Assembly: GCF_025717065.2 (NCBI RefSeq)
Contig: NZ_JAOVZO020000014.1
Span: 310,001-374,000, forward strand
Length of the DNA stretch: 64,000 nucleotides
Source: Tahibacter soli
GTDB lineage: Bacteria; Pseudomonadota; Gammaproteobacteria; Xanthomonadales; Rhodanobacteraceae
Direction of reading: 5' to 3'
In this document: positions 304 to 20,669 of the stretch, in pieces
How positions within the stretch are numbered: the first letter of the stretch is position 1
Layout of the letters: each line of letters opens with the position of its first letter
The notes under the pieces: generated by a model
What the model was told of the DNA's origin: nothing
Databases searched by the model: none
What the model saw: only the letters and a program-made list of their open reading frames with translations
Translations under genes and position numbers: made by a program

Positions 304-1626
304 TTACTCGGCCGCGGGTGCGGCCGGTTGTTTGACCGGCAGGACGATGCGGAACATCGAGCCCTGGCCCGGCGTGCTGGTCACGTCGATGCGCCCGTTG
401 TGCTTGGCGACGATGCCGTAGGAGATCGCAAGTCCGAGTCCGGTGCCCTTGCCGACCGGCTTGGTGGTGAAGAACGGATCGAAGATGCGCAACAGGTTCG
501 TCTCGGGGATGCCCTCGCCGTCGTCGCCGATCGCGACCCAGACGTGGCCGCCGTCGCTGCCCGTGCTGATGGTGATGATGCCCTGATCGCTGATGGCCTG
601 GGCGGCGTTCATGAGGATGTTCATGAACACCTGGTTGAGTTCCGACGGCAGGCATTCGATGGCGGGAAGGTCGCCGAACGACTTGACGATCTGGCCCTTG
701 TACTTGATCTCGTTCCAGACGATGTTGAGCGTCGAATCGAGGCCGCGGTGGATGTCGGCGACCACCCAGCCGTCGCCGCGGTCGCTGCGGGAAAAGTCCT
801 TGAGGTCCTGCACGATCTTGCGTACGCGCTCGATGCCTTCGCGCGATTCGGACAGGAGCGCCGGCAGGTCGTCCACGACGAAGTCGATGTCGAAGCGGCG
901 GCGCAGCTCGGCGATCTCGGCGGTCGCGGCGGGTCCGGGCGAACGCAGCGCCTCCTCGTAGGTGCCGATCAGGGTCAGGAGGTGGCGCGAATAGTCGGCC
1001 AGCGTGCCGAGATTCGAATGCACGTAGCCGATCGGATTGTTGATCTCGTGCGCCACGCCCGCGGCGAGCTGGCCGATGGAGGCGAGCTTTTCCGACTGGA
1101 TCAGCTGCTCCTGCGCGCCCTTGAGCTTGCGATAAGCCTCTTTGAGTTCGGCGTTGCGGTTGCTGAGCTCGTCGCGACGGGCATGATCGGCCGAGACGTC
1201 GCGCGCGACGAACCCGTAGCGCGCTTCGCCGGCCGACCGCAGCGCCACCAGTTGCACGCGCAGCGCGATCGGATGCGCCTCGCTCATGGCGGGCAGCGAG
1301 ACCTCCCCCACCCATTCGCCTTCGGTCGCCGCCACCGCGAGCGCCGCCGGCGATACGAGGTCGGGGTGCCACGCGCCGACCACGTCGAGCGGCGCAGGCG
1401 TCGCGCCGTGCAGGCGAGCCACGAGCTGGAACGCCGCATCGTTCGCGTACAGCACGCGCAGGCCGGCGTCGAAGACCAGCATCGGATCGTGAAGAGCGTC
1501 GGCGAGAGAATCGAGCAAATCCGCGCCTTCGCTTCGGGAGCCGTTGACGAATCGCATCGCGCCTCTGGGCTTTTGGACCTGCGTCCGTTCGGACAGGTCC
1601 ACATGTTCAGTACCGTACGCGATCAT
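304..1626 (-). CDS. PAS-containing sensor histidine kinase
   Basis: A soluble histidine kinase of 440 residues with no membrane segment. A PAS-like domain covers about residues 40-145 and a charged coiled coil 146-182. The H-box is GVAHEINNP with H193. The ATPase domain shows an N-box ([13 protein letters not shown]), a G1 box (DDGEGI) and GTGLGLA. The ATG at 1626 lies 7 bp after flgN; an in-frame ATG at 1557 is an alternative start. It sits between flgN and a response regulator in one tight operon, so it should be made late, with FliA-dependent genes. The HEINNP kinase core resembles kinases paired with diverse outputs. The signal it senses cannot be read from the sequence. Confidence 0.9.
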
Positions 1627-1632: not shown

Positions 1633-1992
1633 TCAGGCCTCCGCCTTCACACGTCCGTGACGAAGGGCGCTGGCGCCGTCGAGGGCGCCGCGCGCGTCGT
1701 AACCGCCCGCGGCGTTCTCGAGGCCGAGCGCGCGCAAGGTCCAGGCGACTTCGCTGCGGCGCCGGGCCAGCAAGGCGCCGTTCGCCCGGTTGAGCTCGTC
1801 GAGTGCGCGAATGCGCTCGCGCATCGCGGGGTCGTCGTCGCCGCTGCAGGTGCCGACCGCGGCGCGCAAGGCCGCCAGCTTGGCCGTGCCCGCGGCGCCG
1901 AGGGCCTCGGTGTCGCGCGACACGAGCGCGTTGCGTTCGTCCAGGAGCGCCGCCTCGAGTTCGGCCAGCGCCGCCGTCGCGCGGGGATTCAC
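1633..1992 (-). CDS. flgN: FlgN, export chaperone for hook-junction proteins
   Basis: A 119-residue, almost all-helical protein of the size and character of FlgN. FlgN escorts FlgK and FlgL to the flagellar export gate in the cytoplasm. The Ala/Leu/Arg-rich heptads and the conserved-looking stretch ending in LNRANGALLARRRSE fit the family (LN..N..LL motif). It starts with GTG overlapping the flgM stop, the standard flgM-flgN arrangement. Its clients flgK and flgL are encoded on the other strand at 11.3-14.4 kb. The call rests on context plus weak sequence similarity, as FlgN is poorly conserved. Confidence 0.82.
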   Translation of the reverse strand: MNPRATAALAELEAALLDERNALVSRDTEALGAAGTAKLAALRAAVGTCSGDDDPAMRERIRALDELNRANGALLARRRSEVAWTLRALGLENAAGGYDARGALDGASALRHGRVKAEA

Positions 1993-2288
1993 GGCAGTGC
2001 CTTGTCGATGTCGATGAGGCGGGAGGCGATCGCCTGGGGGTCGACCTTGTAGGTGCCGCTCTCGATCGCCGAACGCAGGCTGGCGACCTTCGCGTGGTCG
2101 AACGGCGCCGGCTGGGCGGCCGCGCTGTACCGCGTGACGGCGAGGTTCTGCGCGTCCACGGTGAGTGCCACGCGGTCGGGGGAGGCGACGGCCGGCGTGT
2201 CGGCAGTACGGGCGGAGGCGACGCGCGTGGGCGTGGGGTCCGGCTGGCGCATGCCGGCGGCGGTAAGGCTGTCGATCTTCGAGGTCAT
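1989..2288 (-). CDS. flgM: FlgM, anti-sigma-28 factor
   Basis: About 99 residues, with a disordered Ala/Thr/Pro-rich N-terminal half and a helical C-terminal half. The C-terminal half (KVASLRSAIESGTYKVD, then AIASRLI) is the FliA-binding signature of the FlgM family. FlgM holds FliA inactive until the hook is finished and it is exported. The ATG at 2288 was chosen over a GTG at 2294 because only the ATG has usable spacing from an upstream GACGGA. A sigma-28 promoter lies about 30 bp upstream, giving the usual feedback on its own target. Confidence 0.93.
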   Translation of the reverse strand: MTSKIDSLTAAGMRQPDPTPTRVASARTADTPAVASPDRVALTVDAQNLAVTRYSAAAQPAPFDHAKVASLRSAIESGTYKVDPQAIASRLIDIDKALP

Positions 2289-2318
2289 GGCCACAGATCC
2301 GTCAATGTTCTGACGAGA

Positions 2319-2386: not shown

Positions 2387-3056
2387 TCAAAGGGCGACGA
2401 GCACTTCGCCGGATGCGGCCACGACGCCTTGCAGCACGCGCCGGGTCGTCGTGTTCTCGACGCTGACGCGCTCGTCCACGCCGGCGTCCGACAGGGCCCG
2501 GCCGGATGCGCGCACCTCGAGGGATCCGGCGCGCGCGACGAGGACGATCAGGTCGCCGCGACGGATCGCGCGCGGCGCGACGAGATCGGGCGGCGCGACC
2601 AGGCTGCCCGCGACCAGCGTGCGGGCTGCCGCGCGCCCGACCGCGGCAGCCGGATCGGCCAGCGTCGCGCCCGCGGCGCCGGCGATGTTGCGGGTTTCGA
2701 CGACGATCGCATCGGCGGAAACGGTTTCGCCCGCGGCGACGGTGCGCGTCGTCACCAGTACCTGTGCCAGGCGCGTCGTCCTCACCGGCACGTATACCCG
2801 CCACGGCGACGGCGCCGTGCATTCGACCAGTGCGACGCCGCGCGACGACTACGCGTGCAGAGAGTTCCGCCTCGCAGCGCGGCAGGCGCAGCGCGCCGTC
2901 GAGTGTCGCGACGGCCCGCAGGTTGGGATCTTCGCCGGCATCCGGCGCGACTACCGAAATGGCGGCGGCGCGAATGCCGTCGGCCGGCTGCCAGGCATCC
3001 TGCGCGAACGTGGCGGTCGCGATAAAAGCGGTCAGCGTGGCGGCGATGCGGCGCAT
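2387..3056 (-). pseudogene. flgA: flgA, P-ring assembly chaperone, with an apparent frameshift
   Basis: FlgA is a periplasmic chaperone for P-ring (FlgI) assembly. The ATG at 3056 opens a signal peptide (MRRIAATLTAFIATATFA) and the FlgA N-terminal domain up to LRLPRCEAELSA. The rest of FlgA (VECTAPSPWRVYVPV, then the SAF-like domain with AIRRGD and the final GVVAASGEVLVAL) is in a different frame ending at 2387. Joining the frames needs one extra base, somewhere about 2825-2850, to be skipped; an in-frame TAG at 2851-2849 bounds the site. The joined protein would be about 222 residues, normal for FlgA. Either flgA is broken or this is a sequencing error. Its sigma-54 promoter and ribosome site (ACGGAG) look intact. 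Confidence 0.88.
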
Positions 3057-3105: not shown

Positions 3106-3148
3106 GGCGCCGCTCAAGTTTTCGCCCCCGGCGCCGATGCGTTTCGTC

Positions 3149-4075
3149 ATGACCTCGCAACTCATCGACCGCATCGACCAGCGCACCCGGCTCGCGGGCC
3201 ACAACCGGCTCGCCCTGCTCCTGTTTCGCCTCGGCGGTCGCCAACTTTTTGGCGTGAACGTGTTCAAGGTGCAGGAAGTGCTGCGCCGTCCCCCGGTGTA
3301 CCCGCTGCCGGGCTCGGCCGGTCCGCTGCTCGGCGTCGCCGACGTGCGCGGCCGGTCGATTCCCGTGCTCGACCTCGGCAGCGCCATCGCGCATCCGGAA
3401 GCCGACGCCGCCGCTTGCGAATTTCTCGTCGTCGCGGAGTTCAACCGTTCGGTGCAGGGCTTCCTCGTGGCCGCCGTGGATCGCATCGTCAACGTGCCGG
3501 TGGAGGAATTGCGCTCGCCGCCGGACTACGGCGGTCCGCCGCTGCTCACCGCCGTCACCCGCGTCGGCGGCGAGCTGGTCCAGCTGATCGACGTCGAGAA
3601 GGTGCTGGCCGACGTGGCCGGCGTTTCGATCGAGATATCGTCCGTTCTGGTCGAGCGGGCCGTGCGGCCAGGCGCGGCCCGGGTGCTGGTGGTCGACGAC
3701 TCGCGCGTCGCCCGCGCGCAGATCCGCACGATGCTCCAGCAGCTGGGCGCCGAATGCGTGCTGCTGCCCGACGGCCGCCAGGCGCTGGCGCACCTCAAGG
3801 AACTCGCGCAACGGGGCATCGTTCCGTCCGAGTACTACGCGCTCGTCGTGTCGGACATCGAGATGCCGGAGATGGACGGCTACACGCTGACGACGGAAAT
3901 CCGACGCGATCCCGCGCTCGCCGGCTGCTGGGTACTTCTGCACACGTCGCTTTCCGGCGTTTTCAACAATGCGATGGTCGAGCGAGTTGGCGCCAACGCG
4001 TTCGTTCCCAAGTACAGCCCCGACGAGCTGGCCGAGTGCGTGCTGTCCCGCTTCGCCTCCCTCGGTATCGCCTGA
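3149..4075 (+). CDS. cheV: CheV, CheW-receiver fusion chemotaxis protein
   Basis: CheV couples receptors to CheA and tunes the response through its receiver. The protein of 308 residues has a CheW-like domain (about 15-165; FGVNVFKVQEV, DVRGRSIPVLDL) followed by a receiver domain (about 180-300; VLVVDDSR, then VVSDIEMPEMDG with the phospho-acceptor Asp). The ATG at 3149 (MTSQLIDRIDQRT) matches how CheV proteins begin; an in-frame ATG at 3137 is possible. It is divergent from flgA and upstream of flgB, its usual place in Pseudomonas-type loci. A poor sigma-28-like site (TAAA-N15-GGCGATGC, 3023-3049) inside flgA could serve it but is unconvincing. Confidence 0.95.
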   Translation: MTSQLIDRIDQRTRLAGHNRLALLLFRLGGRQLFGVNVFKVQEVLRRPPVYPLPGSAGPLLGVADVRGRSIPVLDLGSAIAHPEADAAACEFLVVAEFNRSVQGFLVAAVDRIVNVPVEELRSPPDYGGPPLLTAVTRVGGELVQLIDVEKVLADVAGVSIEISSVLVERAVRPGAARVLVVDDSRVARAQIRTMLQQLGAECVLLPDGRQALAHLKELAQRGIVPSEYYALVVSDIEMPEMDGYTLTTEIRRDPALAGCWVLLHTSLSGVFNNAMVERVGANAFVPKYSPDELAECVLSRFASLGIA

Positions 4076-4135: not shown

Positions 4136-4534
4136 ATGGCAGGCAGCATCGACAGCATGTTCGGCATCCACGGGGCCGCGCTCGCCCTGCGCGAGGAGCG
4201 CCTGTCGCTGATCGCATCGAACATCGCGAACGCCGACACCCCGAACTACCGGGCGCGCGACCTCGACTTCGACGCCGCCCTGCGCCGCGCCGGGGGAGAG
4301 GCCGGCGGGCTCGATGCCACGAGCGCCGCGCACTACAAGGTCGCGGACTCCGCCGGAAATCCCGGCGCCGCCCAGGTCTACCGCGTGCCGATGCAGGCGA
4401 GCCTCGACGGCAACACCGTCGACACCGATTTCGAGAACGCCGCCTTCGCGCGGGCCGCGCTGGAGTACCGCGCGAGCCTGTCGTTCGTAGAGGGCCGCGT
4501 GCGCACGCTGCTCGCCGCGATCGGAGGCGAATGA
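4136..4534 (+). CDS. flgB: FlgB, proximal rod protein
   Basis: FlgB forms the lowest part of the rod, joined to the MS-ring by FliE. The protein of 132 residues has the N-terminal rod signature (RLSLIASNIANADTPNYRARD) and the C-terminal helix with ALEYRASLSFVEGR. The ATG follows a GGAGAG site. It opens the operon flgBCDEFGHIJKL, and its stop overlaps the flgC start region. Confidence 0.97.
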   Translation: MAGSIDSMFGIHGAALALREERLSLIASNIANADTPNYRARDLDFDAALRRAGGEAGGLDATSAAHYKVADSAGNPGAAQVYRVPMQASLDGNTVDTDFENAAFARAALEYRASLSFVEGRVRTLLAAIGGE

Positions 4535-4941
4535 TGTCCGGCCTGCCGATCTTCGACGTCGCCGGCTCGGCGCTCGCCGCGCAGTCGGTGCGGCTCAACA
4601 CCGTCGCGAGCAATCTCGCCAACGTCGACAGCACGAGCGGCGACCCGGCCAAGGTCTACCGCGCGCGCGAGCCGGTGTTCGCCGCCTTTCAGGTCGGCGA
4701 CGACCCTTCGCTCGCCGGCGTGCAGGTCACGCGCGTCGACGAAAGCCGATCGCCGCCGCTCAAGCGCTACGAGCCGGGCAACCCCGCGGCCGATGCGCAA
4801 GGCTACGTGTACGCGCCGGACATCGACCCGGTGGCGCAGCTGGTCAACATGATCTCGGCATCGCGCGCCTACCAGGCCGACGTCGAGATGGTGAACACCG
4901 CGAAGGAACTCGCGCTGTCGACCCTCAATCTCGGCCGCTGA
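4534..4941 (+). CDS. flgC: FlgC, proximal rod protein
   Basis: FlgC is a rod protein of 135 residues. The rod/hook signature RLNTVASNLANVDS is near residue 23. The C-terminal signature is VNMISASRAYQADVEMVNTAKEL. Two ATG codons stand in tandem at 4531 and 4534; 4534 was chosen because it is 6 nt from GGAGG, while 4531 is only 3 nt away. It overlaps the end of flgB, so translation is probably coupled. Confidence 0.97.
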   Translation: MSGLPIFDVAGSALAAQSVRLNTVASNLANVDSTSGDPAKVYRAREPVFAAFQVGDDPSLAGVQVTRVDESRSPPLKRYEPGNPAADAQGYVYAPDIDPVAQLVNMISASRAYQADVEMVNTAKELALSTLNLGR

Positions 4942-4964
4942 CGGCCGCCTCCACGGACAACGAC

Positions 4965-5633
4965 ATGACCGTAACCTCGACCAATCCCTACGCGCAGCTC
5001 GGCATCGCGCAGCAGGGCATCGTCACGACGCCGCGCAGGACCGAGCTCGGCCAGGACGATTTCCTGCGCCTCATGGCCGAGCAGATGAGAAATCAGGATC
5101 CGACCAAGCCGCTCGACAGCACCGGCTTCCTGGCCCAGCTCGCCCAGTTCTCGACCGTCAAGGGCATCCAGGGCGTCAACGACTCGCTGCTGGGCGTCGG
5201 CGCGATGCTCGGCGAAAGCCAGGCGCTGCAGGCCGCCTCGATGGTGGGACGCGACGCCTATCTCTCCACCGATCACGTCACGCTCGATGCGCCCGTCGCG
5301 AACGCGCCGCGCGAGATCCGCGGCGTCGCGACGGCCGGCGCGGCCGGGCCGGTCGTGGTGACCATCAAGAACGCGGCCGGCCAGGTGGTACGCACGCTGA
5401 CCGTGGAGGCGACAGGCGCCGGCGACGTCGACTTCTCCTGGGACGGCAAGGGCGACGACGGCACGGCGCTGCCGGCCGGCGAATACAAGTTCTCCGCCAC
5501 ATCGGGAGGCACGGATGCGGCGCTGCAGTTCGCCGCCCGCATCGACAGCGTCTCGTTCACCCCGCAAGGCATGGTTCTCAACGTCCACGGCCAGGGCGCC
5601 GTGACCTTCGATCGCATCACCCGCATCGCGTGA
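4965..5633 (+). CDS. flgD: FlgD, hook-capping protein
   Basis: FlgD is the scaffold at the growing hook tip and is later shed. The 222 residues show the conserved N-terminal part (LGQDDFLRLMAEQMRNQDP, DSTGFLAQLAQFSTVKG) and the C-terminal FlgD Ig-like/tudor region (FSWDGKGDDGTALPAGEY). This is a typical length. It lies between flgC and flgE with a 23-bp gap upstream. Confidence 0.97.
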   Translation: MTVTSTNPYAQLGIAQQGIVTTPRRTELGQDDFLRLMAEQMRNQDPTKPLDSTGFLAQLAQFSTVKGIQGVNDSLLGVGAMLGESQALQAASMVGRDAYLSTDHVTLDAPVANAPREIRGVATAGAAGPVVVTIKNAAGQVVRTLTVEATGAGDVDFSWDGKGDDGTALPAGEYKFSATSGGTDAALQFAARIDSVSFTPQGMVLNVHGQGAVTFDRITRIA

Positions 5634-5643
5634 GGAAAACCGT

Positions 5644-6876
5644 ATGACTTTTCGCATCGCACTGAGCGGCCTCAACGCCGCGACCGCCGACCTCAACGTC
5701 ACCGCCAACAACATCGCGAACGTCAACACGCCGGGCTTCAAGCGCTCGCGCGCGGAGTTCTCCGACCTCTTCGCGGTGTCGCCCTACGGCCTCGCCAAGA
5801 ACGAGATCGGTGCGGGCGTGAAGGTGTCGCGGATCTCGCAGCAGTTCGCGCAGGGCAACATCGACTTCACCGACAACAGCCTCGACATGGCGATTTCCGG
5901 CGAAGGCTTTTTCACGCTGTCCCGCAACGGCGCGCACGTCTATTCGCGGGCCGGCAACTTCAGCGTCGACCGCAACGGCTACGTGGTCAACAACACCGGC
6001 GATCGCCTGCAGGCCTTTCCCGCGGTGCCGGGACTGCCGGGCGCGGCGCCGACATTCAACACCGGCGCGCTCGGCGACCTGCACCTGTCGGTCGCCGATG
6101 CGCCGCCCTCGGCGACGCAGAACGCCACCGTCGGCACCAATCTGCCGGCCAACGCGACGGCGCCGACGGTGACGCCGTTCAGCGCGACGAATGCACAAAG
6201 CTACAATCAGTCGACGTCGATGTCGTTTTACGATTCGCTCGGCGTCGAGCACACCGCGACGTTCTACTACGTCAAGACCGCCAATCCGAACGAGTGGCAG
6301 ATGTATTCGACGGTCGACGGCACGGCGGTCGGCGGCGCCAACACGCTGCAATACGACACCAGCGGCGCGCTCATCGCGCCGGCGGGCGGCACGCTCGCGC
6401 TGCCGGCGTACGCGCCGACCAACGGCGCCGCGCCGATGAACGTCACGCTCGACCTGTCGACCTCGACGCAATTCGGCTCGTCGTTCGCCGTCAACAAGCT
6501 GACGCAGGACGGCTACGCCGCCGGCCAGCTTTCCGGCGTGGACGTGAGCGACGAGGGCGTCGTCACGGCGCGCTACACGAACGGCCAGGCCGTCCCGCTG
6601 GGCCAGGTGGCGCTCACCGGCTTCGCCAACCCGCAAGGCCTGCAGCAGCTCGGCGACACCATCTGGGCCGAAACCTACGACTCCGGCCAGCCCTTGCTCG
6701 GCGCCGCCGGCACGTCGGCGTTCGGAAAGGTGCAGTCCGGCGCGCTGGAGGCGTCCAACGTCGACCTGACCGAGCAACTGGTCAACATGATCACCGCGCA
6801 GCGCGACTTCCAGGCGAACGCGCAGATGATCTCGACGGCCGACCAGGTCACCCAGACCATCATCAACATCCGCTGA
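5644..6876 (+). CDS. flgE: FlgE, hook protein
   Basis: FlgE polymerises into the flexible hook. The protein of 410 residues is typical for the family. The N-terminal rod/hook motif is LNVTANNIANVNTPGFKRSR; the middle has YDSLGVEHTATFYYVK of the FlgE D2 domain. The C-terminus ends in EQLVNMITAQRDFQANAQMI. A short GAGG ribosome site precedes the ATG. Confidence 0.97.
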   Translation: MTFRIALSGLNAATADLNVTANNIANVNTPGFKRSRAEFSDLFAVSPYGLAKNEIGAGVKVSRISQQFAQGNIDFTDNSLDMAISGEGFFTLSRNGAHVYSRAGNFSVDRNGYVVNNTGDRLQAFPAVPGLPGAAPTFNTGALGDLHLSVADAPPSATQNATVGTNLPANATAPTVTPFSATNAQSYNQSTSMSFYDSLGVEHTATFYYVKTANPNEWQMYSTVDGTAVGGANTLQYDTSGALIAPAGGTLALPAYAPTNGAAPMNVTLDLSTSTQFGSSFAVNKLTQDGYAAGQLSGVDVSDEGVVTARYTNGQAVPLGQVALTGFANPQGLQQLGDTIWAETYDSGQPLLGAAGTSAFGKVQSGALEASNVDLTEQLVNMITAQRDFQANAQMISTADQVTQTIINIR

Positions 6877-6910
6877 CCCCGGCGACGCCGCAGCGTAAAG
6901 GAATCCCATC

Positions 6911-7654
6911 GTGGACAAAGGCATTTATGTCGCGATGACCGGTGCCGCCGCCACGCTCAAGGCGCAGACGGCGGTCTCGCACAACCTCGCCAACATCGAC
7001 ACCGCCGGCTTCAAGGCGATGCTCGTGCGCACCGATCCGTACTATGTCGACCCGACGCCGGGCGCCGCCAGCCGCGTCGACGCGACATCGGCGATCGGCG
7101 GCGTCGACACGTCTTCCGGTCCGCTGATTCAGACCGGCGGCGCGCTCGACGTCGCGCTCGCGCCCGACCGCTGGCTCGCGGTGCAGGATTCCGCCGGCAA
7201 CGAGGCGTACACGCGCGCCGGCGATTTGACGCTGACGCCCAACGGAATCCTGACGACCGCGTCCGGCCGGCCCGTGCTCGGCGCGTCGGGCCCGCTCACG
7301 CTGCCGCCGCATGCGTCGGTCAGCGTCGGCGCCGACGGCACCGTCTCGATCGTGCCGCAGGGCGAGGCGCCCGATGCACAGGCGGTGATCGGCCGCCTGC
7401 GCGTGGTCGACGCGAGTGCCGTAGCGCTCGAGCGCGGCGAGGACGGACTGATGCGCGCCCCCGCCGGCACCACGCTCGAGCCGGCCGCCGGCAAAGTGCT
7501 GACCTCGGGCGCCATCGAGGGCTCGAACGTCGGCGCCGCGCAGTCGCTCGTCACCATGATCGCGCTGTCGCGCCAGTTCGAAATGCAGGTCCGGGTCTTG
7601 CAGACATCCGACGAGAACGCGCGGTCGGCCAATTCGCTGCTGCGTCCGAGCTGA
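6911..7654 (+). CDS. flgF: FlgF, proximal rod protein
   Basis: FlgF is a rod protein, here 247 residues. It begins MDKGIYVAMTGAA, typical of FlgF, followed by VSHNLANIDTAGFKA. The C-terminal SLVTMIALSRQFEMQVRVL is also characteristic. The start is GTG. It lies between flgE and flgG, as in Pseudomonas and Salmonella. Confidence 0.97.
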   Translation: MDKGIYVAMTGAAATLKAQTAVSHNLANIDTAGFKAMLVRTDPYYVDPTPGAASRVDATSAIGGVDTSSGPLIQTGGALDVALAPDRWLAVQDSAGNEAYTRAGDLTLTPNGILTTASGRPVLGASGPLTLPPHASVSVGADGTVSIVPQGEAPDAQAVIGRLRVVDASAVALERGEDGLMRAPAGTTLEPAAGKVLTSGAIEGSNVGAAQSLVTMIALSRQFEMQVRVLQTSDENARSANSLLRPS

Positions 7655-7669
7655 CGGAGGATACGAATC

Positions 7670-8455
7670 GTGAACCAGGCACTATGGGTCGCCAAGACCG
7701 GACTCGACGCGCAGCAGACGCGCATGAGCGTCGTGTCGAACAATCTCGCCAACGTGAACACGACCGGCTTCAAGCGCGGTCGCGCGAGCTTCGAGGACCT
7801 GCTCTATCAGAACGTGCGCCAGCCCGGCGGCGCGACCTCGCAGGATACGCAGCTGCCCTCGGGCGTGAGCCTCGGCACCGGCGTGCGGGTGGTCTCGACG
7901 GAAAAGTCGTTCGCGCAGGGCAACCTGCTGCAGACCGGCAACGCCCTCGACCTCGCCGTGCAGGGCCGCGGCTTCTTCGAGGTGCGCATGCCCGACGGCA
8001 GTTCGGGCTATACGCGCGACGGCAGCTTCCAGGTCAATTCGCAGGGCGCGCTGGTCACCTCGTCGGGCTACGCGGTGGAGCCCGGCATCCAGATTCCCGA
8101 AGGCGCGCAAAGCGTCACCGTCGGCGCCGACGGCACGGTCAGCGTGCAGGTGGCGGGACAGGCGCAGCCGGTGCAGGTGGGCGCGCTCACGCTGGCCGAT
8201 TTCATCAATCCGGCCGGCCTGCAGGCGAAGGGCGAAAACTTCTACGTCGAGACCGCCGCGAGCGGGCCCGCGCAATCGGCGGCGCCCGGCGTGCAGGGCC
8301 TCGGTACGTTGCAGCAAGGCTCGCTCGAAAGCTCGAACGTCAACGTGGTCGAAGAACTGGTCAACATGATCGAGACGCAGCGAGCGTACGAGATGAACGC
8401 CAAAGCGATCTCGACCACCGACCAGATGCTCGGCCACCTGACCAACAACCTGTGA
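7670..8455 (+). CDS. flgG: FlgG, distal rod protein
   Basis: FlgG builds the distal rod that crosses the peptidoglycan and outer membrane. The 261 residues are almost exactly the usual length. The N-terminus has [18 protein letters not shown]. The C-terminus has [22 protein letters not shown]. It starts with GTG after a GGAGGA site. Confidence 0.98.
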
Positions 8456-8463
8456 GCGCGACC

Positions 8464-9144
8464 ATGAACCGCCTTCTCCGCTTCGCCACGTTCGCCGCCC
8501 TCGCCGCCCTCGCCGGGTGCGCCGCCGGACCGCAGCCGCTGCCGCTCGCCGACATGACGCCGACGCAGCCCGTGGCCCTGGCTCCGCCGCCGGCGACGCC
8601 GGGCGCGATCTACCGGGCCGGCGGCGACATCGCATTGTTCCAGGACCAGAAGGCGCGCAACCCGGGCGACCTCATCACGATACTGCTGGTCGAGCGTACC
8701 AATGCGACGACGAGCGCGAAGACGAAGACCTCGAAGAACACCAAGACCGACACGGCCGTGTCCTCGCTGTTCGGCGGCGCCGTCACGCTCGGCGGCCGCG
8801 CGCTGCTCGACAACTCGCTCTCCGGCGCCAACAGCTTCGAGGGTTCCGGCGACTCGACCCAGGGCAACCGTCTCGACGGCAGCGTGACCGTGACGGTCGC
8901 GCAGCGCCTGGCCAACGGCAACCTGGTGGTGCGCGGCCAGAAGCGCCTGCGGCTGAACCAGGGCGACGAATACGTGCAGGTGCAGGGCATCGTGCGCGGC
9001 GCCGACATCGCGCCGGACAACACCGTCCCGTCGAACCGCGTGGCCGACGCGCAGATCGTCTACGGCGGCCGCGGGCCGATCGCGAAATCCAACGCGATGG
9101 GCTGGCTGACGCGCTTTTTCCAATCTTCCGTTTCTCCCTATTGA
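8464..9144 (+). CDS. flgH: FlgH, L-ring lipoprotein
   Basis: FlgH forms the outer-membrane L-ring bushing. The protein of 226 residues starts with a lipoprotein signal whose lipobox LAGC places the lipidated Cys near residue 19. Conserved L-ring segments include [34 protein letters not shown] and the C-terminal [10 protein letters not shown]. It lies 8 bp after flgG. Confidence 0.98.
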
Positions 9145-9154
9145 GGCATCCGGC

Positions 9155-10249
9155 ATGCGCGCGCTCGTTCTGTTGCTGTTGATCGCCTACGCTGCGGCCG
9201 CGCCGGCCGAACGCATCAAGGACCTCGCGCAGGTCGGCGGCGTGCGCGGCAACCCGCTGGTCGGCTACGGCCTCGTGGTCGGGCTCGACGGCACCGGCGA
9301 CCAGACCAGCCAGGCGCCCTTCACCGTTCAGAGCCTCAAGAACATGCTCACGCAACTGGGCGTGACGATGCCGCCGAACGTCAATCCGCAGCTGAAGAAC
9401 GTCGCGGCGGTGGCGGTGCACGCCACCCTGCCGGCATTCGCCAAGCCCGGCCAGCCGATCGACGTCACGGTGGCGTCGATCGGCAACGCCGGCAGCCTGC
9501 GCGGCGGCCTGCTGCTGATGACGCCGCTGCGCGGCGCCGACGGCGAGACCTACGCCATCGCGCAGGGCAACCTCGTGGTCGGCGGCTTCGGCGTCTCCGG
9601 CAAGGACGGTTCGCGCGTTGCCGTGAACGTTCCCAGCGCCGGCCGCATTCCGAACGGCGCGACGGTGGAGCGCGCGGTGCCGGGCGCGCTCGACGCCGGC
9701 GGCGACGTCACGCTCAACCTCAACTCCCCCGACTTCACGACCATGCAGCGCATGGTGGACGCCATCAACCGCGACGCCGGCCCCGGCGCGGCGCACGCCG
9801 TCGACGCGGTCACCGCCGCCGTACGCGCCCCGGCCGACCCGTCCGAACGCATCGGCTTCATCGCGCGGCTGGAAAACCTCGAACTCGTCGGTGCCGATGC
9901 GCCGGCCAGGGTCATCGTCAACTCGCGCACCGGCACCGTCGTGATCGGCGCGCGCGTGCGGGTCACACCCGCGGCCGTCTCGCACGGCTCGCTCGTGGTG
10001 TCGATCGCCGAGCGCGCGGCGGTGTCGCAGCCGGCGCCGCTTTCGCAGGGCGAAACCGTCGCCGTACCGCGTTCCACCGTCGAGGTGTCGCAGGAAGGCA
10101 GCCGCATGTTCCTGTTCGCCGGCGGCGTTTCGCTGGACGAGATCGTGCGCGCGGTGAACCAGGTGGGTGCCGCGCCGGGCGATCTCGTCGCGATACTCGA
10201 AGCGCTCAAGGAAGCCGGCGCGTTGCGCGCCGAGCTCGACGTCATCTGA
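9155..10249 (+). CDS. flgI: FlgI, P-ring protein
   Basis: FlgI forms the periplasmic P-ring around the rod. The 364 residues start with a signal peptide ending near APA, then [15 protein letters not shown] and [17 protein letters not shown], the family hallmark. The C-terminal [20 protein letters not shown] is typical. Its assembly normally needs FlgA, which appears frameshifted here. Confidence 0.98.
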
Positions 10250-10261
10250 CCGCGCACGACG

Positions 10262-11317
10262 ATGGATACGCGCCTCGTTCCCGTCGATGCGATGCAGACG
10301 AGCCTGTCGTCGCTCAAGGCGGCCGCAGCCTCGCGCGATCCGCGCGCCGCGGCCGCGACGGCACGCCAGCTCGAAAGCGTGTTCGCCGAGCACCTGGTCA
10401 AGAGCATGCGCAGCGCCAGCGGCGGCAACAGCCTGTTTCCGGCTCAGAATCCGCTGTACCAGGAAATGTACGATCGCCAGATTGCGCAAAAGCTGGCGCA
10501 GGGCCGCGGCCTCGGACTTGCCGGCGTGGTCGAGCGCAGCCTCGGCGGCTCGGCGGCACCGGCCGCGGACGGCGTCCCGGCGCGCACCGCCGCGGGGCGC
10601 GCCTACTCGCTCGCCGCGTACGCCCGCACGCTGCCGCCGCAGCGCGCGATGCCGGCTCAGGAAATGCCGCGACCGGCCGATAAACCCGATACGACCGAAC
10701 CACCGATTTCCCCCACCGGTCCGGCGTCCAGCGCGTCGTCCAGCGCGAATACCCCGTTCGCGGACGACGCCTCGCCGGGCCGGCTTTCTCCTTCCGCGGG
10801 CACTGCCCGTTACGACTCGCCGGACGAATTCGTCGCGGCCGTCTGGCCGCATGCGGTGCGCACCGCCGCCGAACTCGGCGTCAGCCCGCGCATCCTGGTG
10901 GCACAGGCCGCGCTCGAAACCGGCTGGGGCCGGCACGTGCCCCGCGCCGACGACGGCAGCGGCAGCCACAACCTGTTCGGCATCAAGGCCGGCGCGAGCT
11001 GGAACGGCGAACGCACCACCACCACGACGCAGGAATACGCCGACGGCGCGATGAAGCGCACGACGGCGCAGTTCCGCGCCTACGGCGACGTCGGCGCGAG
11101 CTTCGACGACTACGCGCGCCTGCTCAAATCGAGCCGGCGCTACGCCGGCGCGCTCGCCGCGGGCACGGACGAGGCGAACTTCGCCCACGCCCTGCAGCGC
11201 GCGGGCTACGCCACCGACCCGGCCTACGCGGCCAAGCTCGTCGGCATCGCCAACGGCCCGGCGCTCGAACGCGCGCTCAAGAATGCCGACGACGAGCCGC
11301 TAGTGGCTGCGAGATAG
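10262..11317 (+). CDS. flgJ: FlgJ, rod cap and peptidoglycan hydrolase
   Basis: FlgJ caps the growing rod and cuts a hole in peptidoglycan. The protein of 351 residues has the rod-binding domain (about 1-95; LESVFAEHLVKSMR), a Pro/Ala/Ser-rich linker (about 100-185) and a glucosaminidase domain (about 185-340). E219 in AALETGWGRH is the likely catalytic Glu, followed by NLFGIKAG. It is the two-domain form found in beta- and gammaproteobacteria. A sigma-28-like site lies inside the linker-coding region. Confidence 0.97.
   Translation: MDTRLVPVDAMQTSLSSLKAAAASRDPRAAAATARQLESVFAEHLVKSMRSASGGNSLFPAQNPLYQEMYDRQIAQKLAQGRGLGLAGVVERSLGGSAAPAADGVPARTAAGRAYSLAAYARTLPPQRAMPAQEMPRPADKPDTTEPPISPTGPASSASSSANTPFADDASPGRLSPSAGTARYDSPDEFVAAVWPHAVRTAAELGVSPRILVAQAALETGWGRHVPRADDGSGSHNLFGIKAGASWNGERTTTTTQEYADGAMKRTTAQFRAYGDVGASFDDYARLLKSSRRYAGALAAGTDEANFAHALQRAGYATDPAYAAKLVGIANGPALERALKNADDEPLVAAR
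10657..10683 (+). promoter_or_regulatory. possible internal sigma-28 promoter within flgJ
   Basis: TCAG (10657-10660), 15 nt, then GCCGATAA (10676-10683), a perfect FliA -10 with a partial -35. It sits in the linker of flgJ, about 650 bp before flgK. It could give extra FliA-dependent flgK-flgL transcription, but may be a chance match inside a coding region. Confidence 0.35.
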
Positions 11318-11332
11318 CCGAAGGAGACGCTC

Positions 11333-13219
11333 ATGCCGGACATTCTCTCCACCGGCTCGTCGGCACTGCTCGCCTTCCAGCGCGCGCTGTCGACGATCAG
11401 CCACAACGTCGCGAACGCCAACACGCCCGGCTATACGCGCCAGCGCGTGGAGCTGGCCGCACGGCCGGGCCAGCACTACGGCTTCGGCTTCGTGGGCGGC
11501 GGCGTGCAGGCGCAGTCGGTGCGCCGGGTGATCGACGACCTCGCCGCCTCGCGCACGCTCGCGAGCGCGGGCGAGCTCGGGCGTCTGTCGCAGCTCGCCG
11601 CCTCGGCGCAGCGGCTCGATGCCGCCTTCACTTCCAGCGCCACCGGCATCGCCGCGCCGCTGTCGAATTTCTTCGACGCCGCGCAGTCGGTGTCGGCCAA
11701 CCCCTCGTCGCCGGCCGCACGCCAGGGCCTCATCGCCAACGCGCAGGCGCTCGCCACGCGCTTCCGTTCGCTCGATACGCAGGCCCAGTCGCTCGACCGC
11801 GAGAACGAGCAGCGCCTCGCCGCCGGCGTGGAAGACGTCAACCGGCTCTCCGCGCAGATTGCACAAATGAACGATGCGATCGCGCGACAGACCGGCGCGG
11901 CAAACGGCAATCCGCCGAACGACCTGTTGGACCGCCGCGACGAACTCGTGCGCACGCTGGCCGGCAAGATCGGCGTGACCACGGCGATGCAGGACGACGG
12001 CTCGCTCAACGTCACCACGCAGGGCGGCCAGGCGCTCGTCGCGGGCAGGCAGTCGCAACGCCTCTCGCTCGTCGCCGATGCGTACCAGCCGACCCGCAGC
12101 CACGTGATGCTGGCGGGCGACTCCGCCCCGCTGCCCGATGCGATGCTCGGCGGCGAGCTCGGCGGCCTGATGGCCTTCCGCCGCGATGTGATCGATCCTG
12201 CCCGGCAGCAGCTCGGCCGGCTCGCGGCGGGACTCGCGCAAACGTTCAACGCGCAGCATCGCCTCGGCGTCGACCAGTACGGACAGCCGGGCTCGGATTT
12301 CTTCACCGGCGTCGCACCGTCCGTACTCGCCGCGTCGACCAACGCCGGCAGCGGCGCGGTCGCGGCGTCCATCGCCGATCCCGCCGCGCTGGACGGCGCA
12401 GACATCGTGATGGCCTTCGACGGCTCGGCCTGGCGCGCGCGCGACGCGGGCACCGGTGCCACGCTGGCGATGACCGGCAGCGGCACCGCGGCCGATCCGT
12501 TTCGCGTCGGCGGCCTGGCGCTCACGACGTCCGGCGGCGCGGTCGCCGGCGACACGTTCCTGGTACGGCCGACCGCGAGCGCCGCTTCGCAGATCGGCGT
12601 CGCGACGACCGACCCGGCCCGCATCGCGGCGGCCTCCGCCCTGCGCGCGTCGGCGGCAACCGGCAACACCGGCAGCGGTGTCGCGGGCAGCGTAACGATC
12701 GCCGACCCGTCGGATCCGCGCCTGCGCGATCCGGTCACCGTCGCGTTCACCGGCCCGAACACGTATTCGATCAACGGCAGCGGCAGCTACACGTATACCC
12801 CGGGGTCGCCGATCGCGGCGAACGGCTGGCGGTTCGATCTCTCGGGCACGCCGGCCGCCGGCGACAGCTTCGCGGTCGGGCCGAACGATCCGCGCTCCGG
12901 CGACAACGGTAATGCGCGCGCCCTCGCGGGACTGGGCGAGGCCGGCCTGTTCGGGCAAGGCATGCAATCGCTGACGCAGGCGACCGCGCAACTTACCTCG
13001 ACGATCGGCAGCGCCGCGCGCCAGGCCGACCTCGCGCTCGACGCGCAGCAGGCGATCGACACGCAGATCGCCGACGAGCGCGCCGCCGTGTCCGGCGTCA
13101 ATCTCGACGAGGAAGCGGCCAACCTCGTGCGCTACCAGCAAGCCTACCAGGCCGCGGCGCAGGTGATCTCGATCGCCAACGAGAATTTCCAGACGCTGCT
13201 CGGAGCGGTGCATCGATGA
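11333..13219 (+). CDS. flgK: FlgK, hook-filament junction protein 1
   Basis: FlgK joins hook to filament. The 628 residues carry the N-terminal motif LSTISHNVANANTPGYTRQR and the C-terminal SGVNLDEEAANLVRYQQAYQAAAQVI. The central region is long and Ala/Gly-rich and includes repeated-looking beta segments around 370-540. The ATG follows AAGGAG. Its stop overlaps the flgL ATG (ATGA). Confidence 0.97.
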   Translation: MPDILSTGSSALLAFQRALSTISHNVANANTPGYTRQRVELAARPGQHYGFGFVGGGVQAQSVRRVIDDLAASRTLASAGELGRLSQLAASAQRLDAAFTSSATGIAAPLSNFFDAAQSVSANPSSPAARQGLIANAQALATRFRSLDTQAQSLDRENEQRLAAGVEDVNRLSAQIAQMNDAIARQTGAANGNPPNDLLDRRDELVRTLAGKIGVTTAMQDDGSLNVTTQGGQALVAGRQSQRLSLVADAYQPTRSHVMLAGDSAPLPDAMLGGELGGLMAFRRDVIDPARQQLGRLAAGLAQTFNAQHRLGVDQYGQPGSDFFTGVAPSVLAASTNAGSGAVAASIADPAALDGADIVMAFDGSAWRARDAGTGATLAMTGSGTAADPFRVGGLALTTSGGAVAGDTFLVRPTASAASQIGVATTDPARIAAASALRASAATGNTGSGVAGSVTIADPSDPRLRDPVTVAFTGPNTYSINGSGSYTYTPGSPIAANGWRFDLSGTPAAGDSFAVGPNDPRSGDNGNARALAGLGEAGLFGQGMQSLTQATAQLTSTIGSAARQADLALDAQQAIDTQIADERAAVSGVNLDEEAANLVRYQQAYQAAAQVISIANENFQTLLGAVHR

Positions 13220-14412
13220 ACCTCAGGATCGCGACTTCCACGCTGTACGACCAGGGCGTCGCCGCCATGCTGCGGCGGCAGGCCGAGATCGCGCGCACGC
13301 AGTCCGAACTCACCGGCGGCTCGCGCATCGGTCGCGCCGGCGACGACCCGCTCGCCGCCGGCCTCGCCGTCTCCCTCGATCGCGCGCAGGCACGGCTCGC
13401 GCAGTTCGGCGAGAACGCGCAGGCGCTCGAGCAGCGCCTCGGCATGGCCGAGAACGCGCTGTCCGGCTTCACCTCGCGTCTCACCCAGGTTCGCGAACTC
13501 GCGCTGCGCGCGTCGAACGACACGCTCTCGCCCGCCGACCGGCAGGTCATCGCCGGCCAGCTGCGCGACCAGTACGACGCGCTCGTCGCGCTGGCCAACA
13601 GCGGCGACGGCACCGGGCGCTATCTGTTCGGGGGAGGCCAGGACGCGGATCCGCCGTTCGTGCGCGGCGTGGCCGTGACCTATGCCGGCGACGATCTTCG
13701 CCGCAGCGTCGACGTCGGGCCGGACACCGCGCTGGCGGACGTGCCGCCGGGCAGCGACGTGTTCCAGCGCATCCCTACGGGCAACGGCACCTTCGCCGTG
13801 CGCGCCGCCGCGGGCAACACCGGCAGCGCGACGCTGGCGTCCACCGGCACCTCGTCCACCGGCAGCTGGGACGGCGGCAGCTACCGGCTGCGCTTCGACG
13901 GCGCCGGCGGCTACGCCGTACTCGACGGCGCCGGCGCGACGGTCGCCTCGGGCAGCTACACGCCCGGCGCCGCGATGGCGTTCAAAGGCGTGCAAGTAAC
14001 GATCAACGGGCAGCCCGGCACGGGCGACGAGTTCAGCGTGCGCGCGGCTCCGCCGCAGGACGCGTTCGCCACCGTGAAGAGCCTGGCCGACGCCATAGAT
14101 GCGAGCGGCGGCGCCGTTCTGAGCGCCGCCGGGCGCAACGCGGTGTTCGCCGGGCTCGAAGATCTCGAGCAGGCGCAGCAGCACGTCACCTCGGCGCGAG
14201 CCTCGATCGGCGGCCGCCTCGCCGCGCTCGATGCCGCCGCCGACGAGCGAAGCGCGAACGCGCTGGCACTGTCCGGGACGCTCTCGCAACTGCGCGAAAC
14301 CGATTACGCCGAGGCCGCGTCGCGGCTCTCGCAGCAACTGGTGGGGCTACAGGCGGCGCAGCAGACGTTCGTCAAAGTACAGAACGCCTCGTTGTTCGAC
14401 TTCCTGCGCTGA
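13216..14412 (+). CDS. flgL: FlgL, hook-filament junction protein 3
   Basis: FlgL is the second junction protein, of 398 residues. It begins MNLRIATSTLYDQGVAAM, typical of FlgL, with the flagellin-like helix GSRIGRAGDDPLAAGLAVSL. The C-terminal helix has YAEAASRLSQQLVGLQAAQQTF. It overlaps flgK by 4 bp and ends the flg operon. The next promoter, for fliC, starts 16 bp further on. Confidence 0.97.
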   Translation: MNLRIATSTLYDQGVAAMLRRQAEIARTQSELTGGSRIGRAGDDPLAAGLAVSLDRAQARLAQFGENAQALEQRLGMAENALSGFTSRLTQVRELALRASNDTLSPADRQVIAGQLRDQYDALVALANSGDGTGRYLFGGGQDADPPFVRGVAVTYAGDDLRRSVDVGPDTALADVPPGSDVFQRIPTGNGTFAVRAAAGNTGSATLASTGTSSTGSWDGGSYRLRFDGAGGYAVLDGAGATVASGSYTPGAAMAFKGVQVTINGQPGTGDEFSVRAAPPQDAFATVKSLADAIDASGGAVLSAAGRNAVFAGLEDLEQAQQHVTSARASIGGRLAALDAAADERSANALALSGTLSQLRETDYAEAASRLSQQLVGLQAAQQTFVKVQNASLFDFLR

Positions 14413-14427
14413 GCCGAACGGCCGGGC

Positions 14428-14454
14428 TAAAGGTTTTCGCGACGCGACCGATAA
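14428..14454 (+). promoter_or_regulatory. sigma-28 (FliA) promoter of fliC
   Basis: TAAA (14428-14431), 15 nt, then ACCGATAA (14447-14454). This matches the FliA consensus TAAA-N15-GCCGATAA at all but one position. The predicted start is about 14461, leaving an untranslated leader of about 95 nt before fliC. Confidence 0.92.
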
Positions 14455-14556
14455 CTTCAACAGCAGCGGCAAACGTCTCGGACGCCCGAACGGCCCTGCG
14501 GATTCCCGGAGCGGCGCGTCGCCGTACCCGGTTACCGTCCTTCCGAGGAGATCGTC

Positions 14557-15711
14557 ATGCAAGTCATCAACACCAACGTGGCCTCGCTCAACGCGCAGCG
14601 CAACCTGTCGTCGTCGCAGTCGGCCCTTTCCACGTCGCTCCAGCGCCTGTCGTCCGGCCTGCGCATCAACAGCGCGAAGGACGACGCCGCGGGCCTCGCC
14701 ATTTCCGAACGCTTCACCTCGCAGATCCGCGGCATGGACCAGGCCAGCCGCAACGCCAACGACGGCATCTCGCTGGCGCAGACGGCCGAAGGCGCGATCG
14801 GCGAGATCGGCAACAACCTGCAGCGCATCCGCGAACTGGCGGTGCAGTCGGCCAACGCGACCAATTCGTCCACCGACCGCGCGGCGCTGCAGACCGAGGC
14901 GAGCCAGCTGCTCGCCGAAATCGACCGCGTGGCGAACCAGACGCAGTTCAACGGCGTCAAGCTGATCGACGGCAGCTTCACCTCGGCCGTCTTCCAGGTC
15001 GGCGCGAATGCCAACGAAACGATCACCGTGCCGTCCTTCGTCGACGCCAACATCGCGGCGCTCGGCAACGTCACTTCGGCCAGCGGCCAGTCGAGCTCCG
15101 TCACGGGCATCTCGAGCCTGGGTGCGGTCGGCGCGGGCGCGCTCGTGATCAACGGCACCGACGTCGGCGCCTCGATCGGCGCGGCCGGTTCGAGCCAGCA
15201 GCGCGTCTCGCAGGTGGTCGACGCGATCAACAACTACTCGACCACGACCGGCGTGAACGCCGCGTTCGACTCGACCACGGGCCGCATCGTGCTCTCGTCC
15301 GGCGCCAACATCGCCGTCACGGGCACCGACGACGGCACGGCCACCGGTTTCGACGTGGGCGGCGGCGACGGCTCGGCCACCGCGACCTCGACGACCGGCC
15401 TGACCTCGCTCAGCGTCGCCTCGTTCGCGGGCGCGACGCTCGCGATCCAGCAGGTCGACAGCGCCCTGTCGCAGGTGAACTCGGCACGCGCGTCGCTCGG
15501 CGCGATCCAGAACCGCTTCAGCTCGGTCGTCGCCAACCTCAACACGAGCTCCGAAAACCTGTCCGCCTCGCGCAGCCGCATCCAGGATACGGACTTCGCC
15601 AAGGAGACCGCCGAGCTGACCCGCACGCAGATCCTGCAGCAGGCCGGCACCGCGATGCTGGCCCAGGCCAACCAGGCCCCGCAGGGCGTGCTCTCCCTCC
15701 TGCGCGGCTGA
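14557..15711 (+). CDS. fliC: FliC, flagellin
   Basis: Flagellin, the filament subunit, of 384 residues. The conserved N-terminal D0/D1 helices (MQVINTNVASLNAQRNL, LQRLSSGLRINSAKDDAAGLAI) and C-terminal helices (SRIQDTDFAKETAELTR, ILQQAGTAMLAQANQ) are intact. The segment LQRIRELAVQSAN corresponds to the D1 helix recognised by TLR5 in typical gamma- and betaproteobacterial flagellins. The central variable region is short and Ser/Thr/Gly-rich. GAGGAG lies before the ATG. It is the only flagellin gene in the window. Confidence 0.98.
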   Translation: MQVINTNVASLNAQRNLSSSQSALSTSLQRLSSGLRINSAKDDAAGLAISERFTSQIRGMDQASRNANDGISLAQTAEGAIGEIGNNLQRIRELAVQSANATNSSTDRAALQTEASQLLAEIDRVANQTQFNGVKLIDGSFTSAVFQVGANANETITVPSFVDANIAALGNVTSASGQSSSVTGISSLGAVGAGALVINGTDVGASIGAAGSSQQRVSQVVDAINNYSTTTGVNAAFDSTTGRIVLSSGANIAVTGTDDGTATGFDVGGGDGSATATSTTGLTSLSVASFAGATLAIQQVDSALSQVNSARASLGAIQNRFSSVVANLNTSSENLSASRSRIQDTDFAKETAELTRTQILQQAGTAMLAQANQAPQGVLSLLRG

Positions 15712-15759
15712 CGCGTCCGCGGGGGCGTGCGGCGAACAAGGCGCCGCGCGTCTCCTCCC

Positions 15760-15829
15760 CCGCCCGTGCCGGCAAGGCAGGGCGCGGCGCCCACTCCCCG
15801 GGGGTGTCGCGAACTGCCGGCACGGGCGG
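15760..15829 (+). terminator. long inverted repeat between fliC and fliD (possible terminator or mRNA-stabilising hairpin)
   Basis: CCGCCCGTGCCGGCA (15760-15774) pairs perfectly with TGCCGGCACGGGCGG (15815-15829), a 15-bp GC-rich stem. Its 40-nt loop contains a nested hairpin GGGCGC-G-GCGCCC (15780-15792). No T-run follows, so it is not a classical intrinsic terminator. It may end or attenuate fliC transcription, or protect the abundant fliC transcript. Confidence 0.6.
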
Positions 15830-15868
15830 CACTCCCGCAACGGATCCTGACGCGACACCACGACCGCC

Positions 15869-17212
15869 ATGACGATCACCACCAGCACAGGGCTCGGCTC
15901 GGGACTGGACATCGGCAGCCTGGTCTCGCAGCTGGTCACCGCGGAACGCACGCCCTCGGACAACCGCCTCAACGCCGTCTCGACGGCAGCGAAGGCCCAG
16001 CTGAGCGCGTTCGGTTCGCTCAAGGCGGCGCTCGGCGGCGTTTCCACGGCGCTCGCCGCGCTGACCGGCGACGATTCCGCCTTCGAAACGCGCGTGGCCG
16101 CGTCGGCCAAGCCCGAGGTGTTCGGCGCCACCGCGTCGCCCGGCGCGGCCGTCGGCCGCTACGCGATCGAGGTGCGCCAGCTCGCCACCGCGCACAAGGT
16201 GTCGACCGGCGCCTTCGCTTCCGCCGATACGCGGGTCGGCACCGGCACGCTGCACGTCGCGGTCGGCGACCACGCCTTCGACGTGGCGATCGGCAGCGGC
16301 GACGCCACGTTGGCGGGCATTCGCTCGGCGATCAACGCCGCCGCGGGCAATGCCGACGTCGATGCCGCCATCGTGCGCACCGACGACGGCGCACGCCTCA
16401 CCCTCACCTCGCGCCGTACCGGCGCGGCCCAGGCGATCTCCGTCACCGCGACCGGGGGCGACGGCGGCCTCGCCGCGCTCGGCGCCATGAGCGACGTGGT
16501 ACCGCCGCAGGACGCCGTGCTGCGCATCGACGGCCGCACGCGTACGAGCGCGTCGAACGTCGTCGCCGACGCGATCGACGGCGTTTCGCTCAACCTCGTT
16601 GCCGCGCAGCCGGATTCGAGCTTCGACCTCGCCGTCTCGCGCGACGCCACGGCGCCGCGACGGGCCGTTGAAAAATTCGTGCAGTCGTACAACGCGCTCG
16701 TCAACGTGATCAACGCGGCGACTCGCTACGACGCTTCCACCCGCAAGGCGTCGGTGCTGACCGGCGATGCGCTGGTCGGCGGGCTGTCGGCGGCGCTGCG
16801 CTCGGCCCTCGGCACCGCCGCGGGCCACGGCGCGCCGTCGCTCGCCGAGGCGGGCGTGACGACGCAGGCCGACGGCACGCTCGCCCTCGACGGCGCCCGG
16901 TTCGACGCGGCCGCCGCGTCGAACGGCGACGGCGTGGCGCGGCTGTTCGCGCCGGGCGGACCGGCGGCCGCGGTCGCCGCGGCGGTGGGGCGCTACGCGG
17001 ACGACGGCGGCATCCTCGCCGACCGCACCGACGCGATCAGCCGCCGGCTGACGGACGTCGACCGCCAGCGCACCGCGCTCGACGCGCGCATGAACGCCAT
17101 GGAATCGCGCTACCGCACGCAATTCGCCGCTCTCGACGCGCTCATCGGCCAGATGCGCACCACGTCGAGCTTCCTGACGCAACAACTTGCCGCGCTCCCC
17201 GGCGCCGGCTGA
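15869..17212 (+). CDS. fliD: FliD, filament cap protein
   Basis: FliD caps the filament tip and folds flagellin into place. The protein of 447 residues starts with the family signature STGLGSGLDIGSLVSQLVTAE. It has FliD_C features (AVEKFVQSYNALVNVIN) and a C-terminal coiled coil (RLTDVDRQRTALDARMNAMESRYRTQF, in part). It heads fliD-fliS-fliT-pilZ. No consensus sigma-28 or sigma-54 site was found directly before it. Confidence 0.97.
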   Translation: MTITTSTGLGSGLDIGSLVSQLVTAERTPSDNRLNAVSTAAKAQLSAFGSLKAALGGVSTALAALTGDDSAFETRVAASAKPEVFGATASPGAAVGRYAIEVRQLATAHKVSTGAFASADTRVGTGTLHVAVGDHAFDVAIGSGDATLAGIRSAINAAAGNADVDAAIVRTDDGARLTLTSRRTGAAQAISVTATGGDGGLAALGAMSDVVPPQDAVLRIDGRTRTSASNVVADAIDGVSLNLVAAQPDSSFDLAVSRDATAPRRAVEKFVQSYNALVNVINAATRYDASTRKASVLTGDALVGGLSAALRSALGTAAGHGAPSLAEAGVTTQADGTLALDGARFDAAAASNGDGVARLFAPGGPAAAVAAAVGRYADDGGILADRTDAISRRLTDVDRQRTALDARMNAMESRYRTQFAALDALIGQMRTTSSFLTQQLAALPGAG

Positions 17213-17225
17213 AGGACGCCTTCCC

Positions 17226-17639
17226 GTGCACGCCCAACGCTATCTCGACATGTACCGCTCCGCCGGCGTCGCCGGTGCCGTCGCCGACGCCGACCCGCAC
17301 GCGCTCATCGCCCTGCTCTATCGCGGCGCGCGCGAACGCATCCGCACCGCGCGCGCCGCCCTGCAGCGCGGCGACGTGCCGCGCAAGCTGGCCGCCGTGG
17401 AATCCGCCTGCTCCATCGTCGACGGACTGCGCATGAGCCTCGATCATGCCGCCGGCGGTGCGATCGCCGCGCAGCTGGACGCGCTGTACGACTACGCCGT
17501 GCGGCGGCTCGTCGAGGCGAACTCCGGCAACGACGACGCCAAGCTGGCCGAGGTCGACGCGCTGATCGAAAGCGTGGAATCGGGCTGGCAGGCCATCCGT
17601 CCGGCCGCGACCGCGAGGGCGTCCGCATGCGCCGGCTGA
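17226..17639 (+). CDS. fliS: FliS, flagellin export chaperone
   Basis: FliS binds flagellin's C-terminus and prevents early polymerisation. The GTG at 17226 gives 137 residues starting MHAQRYLDMYRSAGV, matching the FliS N-terminus; ADPHALIALLYRGARERI is the conserved helix. An AAGGA lies about 10 nt upstream. It follows fliD by 13 bp and overlaps fliT by 13 bp. Confidence 0.94.
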   Translation: MHAQRYLDMYRSAGVAGAVADADPHALIALLYRGARERIRTARAALQRGDVPRKLAAVESACSIVDGLRMSLDHAAGGAIAAQLDALYDYAVRRLVEANSGNDDAKLAEVDALIESVESGWQAIRPAATARASACAG

Positions 17640-17896
17640 TCGACGATCTCGCCGATGCCTCGGCGCTGCTCGATGCGGGCCGCGTGGAAGAGGCCGTCGC
17701 CGGCTTCAGCGACGTCGAACGCCGCGTACGCGACGAGGTTCCCGCCGAGATCGCCGCCCTGCGCGACCTGGCCGCGGCCTACTCCGCCTGCCTCGAACGC
17801 CTGGTGGCGCGGCGCGACTCGCTGGCGGAAGGCCGCGCCGGCGAAAGCCGCGGCATCGCCGTCGCCCGCCGCTACCTCGACGGCGCACGCGCGTGA
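17627..17896 (+). CDS. fliT: FliT-like flagellar chaperone
   Basis: A small helical protein of 89 residues, the usual size for FliT, which chaperones FliD. The sequence itself is weakly conserved; position after fliS is the main evidence. The ATG overlaps the fliS end by 13 bp. Its stop overlaps the GTG start of the PilZ gene, so the four genes fliD-fliS-fliT-pilZ are likely one translationally coupled unit. Confidence 0.75.
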   Translation: MRRLIDDLADASALLDAGRVEEAVAGFSDVERRVRDEVPAEIAALRDLAAAYSACLERLVARRDSLAEGRAGESRGIAVARRYLDGARA

Positions 17897-19135: not shown

Positions 19136-19160
19136 CGCCCGTCGAAAAACCGGCATTGTC

Positions 19161-20655: not shown

Positions 20656-20669
20656 AGAGGGCTGCTTCC

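Follow-up and report, generated by a model that had tools for sequence, protein, structure and literature searches.

In the 64,000-nucleotide stretch of DNA analyzed here (the window), flgA, the gene for the FlgA P-ring chaperone, lies on the minus strand with its coding sequence divided between two frames, as an initial annotation had observed from the sequence. We consider it very probable, at roughly nine chances in ten, that an otherwise normal flgA has been split by a one-base insertion of an ordinary, unselected kind, reflecting either an error in the assembly or a mutation that arose very recently, for which the chances are about even. The split is beyond chance, with length, cysteine spacing, gene order and codon bias all concordant, and frames and profile scores likewise bear out its description as a one-base split with two recognizable halves. 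The gene comprises three parts:

2851–3056, minus strand: flgA N-terminal part, in the frame of the ATG at 3056, with a hydrophobic start followed by the first domain up to the break
2826–2850, minus strand: flgA break stretch, in which a one-base skip rejoins the frames and the longest run of one base is 2
2387–2848, minus strand: flgA C-terminal part (ChapFlgA), in the +1 frame, which stays open between 2848 and 2390

On the upstream side, an in-frame TAG at 2851–2849 closes the second frame (minus strand) and limits the site as had been claimed, while the lower limit of the break stretch is given by join scores, which drop below position 2829 with a profile of the nearest-kind relatives. 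The frame from the ATG at 3056, with GGAG seven bases upstream, lacks an early stop; its stop codon ends only at 2343, so that the product is 237 aa long and carries a tail read out of frame. Its N terminus is hydrophobic and signal-like as judged by eye, representing a putative export signal. No clear ribosome site was recognized by eye for a GTG at 2791. Rejoining the frames by one skipped base yields 222 aa, the normal length that had been predicted. The C-terminal part matched the ChapFlgA profile PF13144 over residues 10–132 of 134 (E = 9.4e-25; 87.5 bits, curated cut-off 23.8 bits) and TIGR03170 over residues 2–132 (107 bits, curated cut-off 54.65 bits). Like known FlgA chaperones (PF13144, TIGR03170; Salmonella FlgA), it thus covers nearly the whole family profile, and the gene likewise neighbors flgM and flgN and adjoins cheV and flgB. 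A Pfam search with the N-terminal part gave no FlgA match. Unlike in these chaperones, a single break interrupts the frame within the first domain, upstream of the family profile, and the N- and C-terminal regions, expected in the same frame for the FlgA family, lie in different ones.

For comparison, a FlgA profile was built from six nearest-kind relatives (L054–L057, L013 and L015); the profile run used 14 of 23 rows, comprising these 6 and 8 others. With the nearest-kind profile, the N-terminal part (scored to 2826) reached 37 bits and the C-terminal part 175 bits, while joins with one base skipped scored up to 218.5 bits, the best lying at 2850 to 2829. Skipping one base places the cysteines that flank the break 18 residues apart, and re-reading two bases places them 19 apart. 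The same spacing is 18 in all six nearest-kind relatives; among the 17 rows beyond them, where L005 and L029 represent one gene, it is 24 in 16 and 22 in one (L011). Because the 18-residue spacing is shared by the join and every nearest-kind relative, one extra base is the simplest reading. In these relatives, to which the initial annotation had proposed a comparison, flgA is intact and a single open frame across the break region (6/6), providing, together with the single disabling indel, the features of a frameshift pseudogene.

Both halves retain a frame-specific codon bias. Codon log-odds for the N-terminal part were +8.9 in its own frame versus −40.2 and −31.3 in the alternative frames, and for the C-terminal part (2791–2390) +27.9 versus −58.0 and −74.6. 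The break is, therefore, recent or false. Retained bias in both halves would also suit programmed or tolerated +1 frameshifting that makes FlgA from the split gene, as would the rare codon GTA at the site (2.5 per 1000 codons). However, the first frame is open to 2343 with no stop near the site and thus no release-factor pause, no known +1 or slippery motif was recognized, and the split is not conserved, flgA occupying one frame in six of six nearest-kind relatives. A ribosomal frame shift, previously raised as a rescue, is for these reasons very improbable. We assign similarly little weight to a long-standing flgA pseudogene with its role taken over or unneeded. FlgI is intact, as this scenario would allow, but the retained coding bias opposes it, and the whole genome (6.65 Mb, 23 contigs) contains one ChapFlgA match and no second FlgA, which also tells against a replacement chaperone of this family, a possibility that had been suggested. 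Furthermore, flgA is reported to be needed for motility in Shewanella oneidensis (PMC3120886), and Salmonella is reported to be non-motile once the FlgI-binding domain is lost (PMC4895218).

The flagellar cluster around flgA is arranged as follows:

304–1626, minus strand: histidine kinase bordering the cluster on the left, next to flgN in 5/5 relatives and retained in congener G005
1633–1992, minus strand: flgN, by position and 45–48% identity to the gene at the flgN position in 5/5 relatives
1989–2294, minus strand: flgM, anti-sigma factor, downstream of flgA (TIGR03824, 56 bits, cut-off 40.75)
3137–4075, plus strand: cheV-like gene, CheW plus receiver
4136–14412, plus strand: flgBCDEFGHIJKL, every gene one open frame
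9155–10249, plus strand: flgI, P-ring protein and FlgA client (PF02119, 465.8 bits, profile 1–343 of 343)
14557–17639, plus strand: fliC, fliD and fliS, by family matches
18506–22470, plus strand: regulator block with LuxR-type regulator, rpoN2, vemR-like receiver and fleQ-like activator
22528–43818, plus strand: fliE–R, flhBAF, fleN-like gene, fliA and motAB
43820–53583, plus strand: chemotaxis block with cheW, cheY, cheA, cheW, MCP, cheR, cheD, cheB and MCP
53676–54797, plus strand: PAS histidine kinase, right border of the cluster, retained in G005 beside its fleQ-like gene

The order histidine kinase–flgN–flgM–flgA–cheV–flgB is common to all five relatives compared. No NCBIfam family matched flgN. 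The rest of the locus is intact, as had been stated: 35 other flagellar proteins scanned in the window (FlgB–L, FlgM, FliC, FliD, FliS, FliE–R, FlhA, FlhB, FlhF, FliA, MotA and MotB) each have a single open frame and match a family, for FliK only through the hook domain, and no decay of further flagellar genes was found in the window. flgI is the sole PF02119 match in the genome. Twelve same-strand frame switches in the window were considered as frameshifts and rejected as overlapping genes, with starts at most 11 bases from the upstream stop. Separately, on the right-hand side of the cluster, two very long adjoining frames (L071:2839–15024; 2045 and 2015 aa) have polyketide synthase-like starts, named by eye.

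An assembly error, in which the consensus is one base too long and the strain's flgA is intact, has close to an even chance. All other flagellar genes tested are intact, and two rRNA stretches (5,493 bases, 99.93% identity, longest identical segment 5,270 bases) lie on one contig without any N in either 20-kb stretch around them. Such near-identical stretches within one contig suggest a long-read assembly. Long-read consensus errors are mostly indels. Precedent exists in S. oneidensis, in which two flgK frameshifts are reported as suspected sequencing errors (PMC3120886). Against an assembly error, no run exceeds 2 at the site, which is atypical for long-read errors. The initial annotation had correctly noted this lack of a homopolymer (longest run of 2 from 2870 to 2815), but its argument that a sequencing slip was, therefore, not obvious is not supported, given the contig structure and other frameshift-like sites in the genome, one of which (L112:12423) likewise lacks a long run.

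These other sites came from a codon-bias scan covering 788,327 bases of this genome, with two pieces excluded (one all N, one foreign). We detected five frameshift-like sites (L082:13586, L085:729, L111:1463, L112:12423 and L113:10891) at a planted-shift sensitivity of 42/60, corresponding to a corrected rate of about 0.9 per 100 kb. Four of the five are located at or near runs of 3–7 bases as judged by eye, including two at A6 and A7, these two being in line with an assembly error. L082:13586 falls in a protein judged by eye to be RHS-like and rich in repeats. flgA itself was not flagged, its N-terminal part being too short for the scan. A retrained codon model was dropped since it locked onto the antisense strand for this genome, giving 167 false sites, and the first model was kept. 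In G005, a single-contig congener, four sites, themselves uninspected, were counted in 400,000 bases at a sensitivity of 25/60; the sampled rate in the window's genome is not above this, a further point against an assembly error. With roughly 0.4 sites expected per 43-kb cluster, a single break there is unremarkable. A rough family census using the C-terminal part as query and counting open frames stop to stop gave matches in 137 of 233 genomes, with a short or split frame in two, this one (153 aa) and G094 (two pieces), and open frames of at least 230 aa in the remaining listed genomes. The G094 split (L194, G094:C1:4717391–4717784) is a second case in another genus of the family, near the C end, with the shift seen in the sequence. 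Unrelated to these counts, a contig of 5,932 bases in the window's genome (L080, G000:C16; 51.5% GC) carries tRNA-Ala, tRNA-Ile and a 16S rRNA gene with just 84.7% similarity to the two others in the genome, and is probably a contaminant.

About equally likely is a real loss-of-function mutation of recent origin, whether natural or acquired during laboratory passage, in what would be the last flagellated branch of an otherwise flagellum-less genus. Short indels are the commonest reported cause of pseudogenes in a xanthomonad, Xanthomonas fuscans 4834-R, accounting for 81 of 137 (PMC3826837), and flagella are dispensable in the genus, given that FlgA, FlgI and flagellin are absent from seven of seven congeners; the stripped cluster of G005, described below, points the same way. 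A real mutation, however, is opposed by the lack of a second broken flagellar gene and by the undecayed codon bias, and a break in an otherwise whole, conserved cluster must have been caught very early.

If the break is real, translation from the ATG at 3056 would yield a 237-aa protein consisting of signal peptide, first domain and an unrelated tail, with the FlgI-binding part missing, and a product from the GTG at 2791 would lack the export signal. A P-ring would then not be expected to form, and without it the flagellum would neither cross the outer membrane nor work. A Salmonella FlgA variant without the FlgI-binding domain was reportedly exported but did not restore motility (PMC4895218). 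We infer that FlgA function would be lost, with the break being recent. As the frame of the ATG at 3056 ends at 2343, short of flgM, little polarity on flgM and flgN would be expected.

Across the genus, FlgA, FlgI and flagellin were matched in one of eight genomes, that of the window's species, and were absent from all seven other congeners, one of which is only 87% complete. This distribution suggests that the window's species is the last flagellated branch of the genus. In G005, positions 11066–17846 of a 20-kb stretch (L192) mirror window positions 304–1626, 18506–22470 and 53676–54797 in the same order (left kinase, LuxR-type regulator, rpoN2, vemR-like gene, fleQ-like gene and right PAS kinase) with 46–76% identity between the genes. 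The regulator block is the only part of the cluster interior retained; segments matching about 1.6–18.5 kb and 22.5–53.7 kb of the window are missing from the locus. A search for flg remnants in these two gaps gave weak matches only (best E = 0.002), which were not called. Residues 1–441 of the fleQ-like gene are matched in G005 at 67%, while the other six congeners have partial matches at no more than 52%, none of them full-length. These data suggest that G005 carries a stripped flagellar locus, with regulators between the same bordering kinases and without FlgA, FlgI and flagellin. In addition, the LuxR-type regulator (18506–19135) and the PAS/HisKA_3 kinase (53676–54797) may form one two-component pair, separated by 35 kb in the window versus about 4 kb in G005.

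Trees of single proteins were in conflict. FlhA (window 34474–36537) grouped with the Stenotrophomonas side (support 100/100), while RpoB placed the genus with its own family (92/83) and the window's genome as sister to the other five congeners amenable to inclusion (98/95). Either an early transfer into the stem of the genus or a replacement among the other members of the family could account for this. From the tree conflict and the absence of FlgA, FlgI and flagellin in all seven congeners, we also considered whether the window's species alone had acquired the cluster horizontally. We rejected this for this branch because the cluster's borders are colinear in G005 and its regulators persist there, and because the bordering kinase adjoins flgN in five of five relatives. 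The simplest account, suggested by the one remnant in G005, is an ancestral cluster removed by two large deletions. More tentatively, and with appreciable doubt, the genus may be seen at three steps of loss: the window's species with the whole cluster minus flgA by one base, G005 with structural and chemotaxis genes lost by two deletions and regulators kept for other uses, and the other six congeners without a full-length fleQ-like match.

Parallels have been reported in related bacteria. X. fuscans 4834-R, from the same bacterial order, has genes broken by short indels and recurring flagellar loss, but its cluster lost several genes, whereas the window is affected by one base in one gene (PMC3826837). 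The non-flagellated relative Lysobacter enzymogenes similarly lost its flagellar cluster stepwise, but with fleQ lost and some export genes kept (PMC9927559); G005 shows the reverse, with rpoN2, vemR-like and fleQ-like genes kept and FlgA, FlgI and flagellin gone. The fleQ–vemR–rpoN2 operon of Xanthomonas citri comprises the same three genes that adjoin in the window and in G005, with the difference that the G005 genome has no FlgA, FlgI or flagellin genes anywhere (PMC6637908).

The flgA break by itself serves as a caution against reading a lone frameshift as biology, and the genus setting is of greater value than the break itself. Should the extra base prove real, the window would hold a nearly complete flagellar system at its first inactivating step, beside a sister lineage with the regulators only. 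It would then be possible to test directly in which order the events of flagellar loss occurred and what role a FleQ–RpoN2–VemR block plays in the absence of a flagellum.
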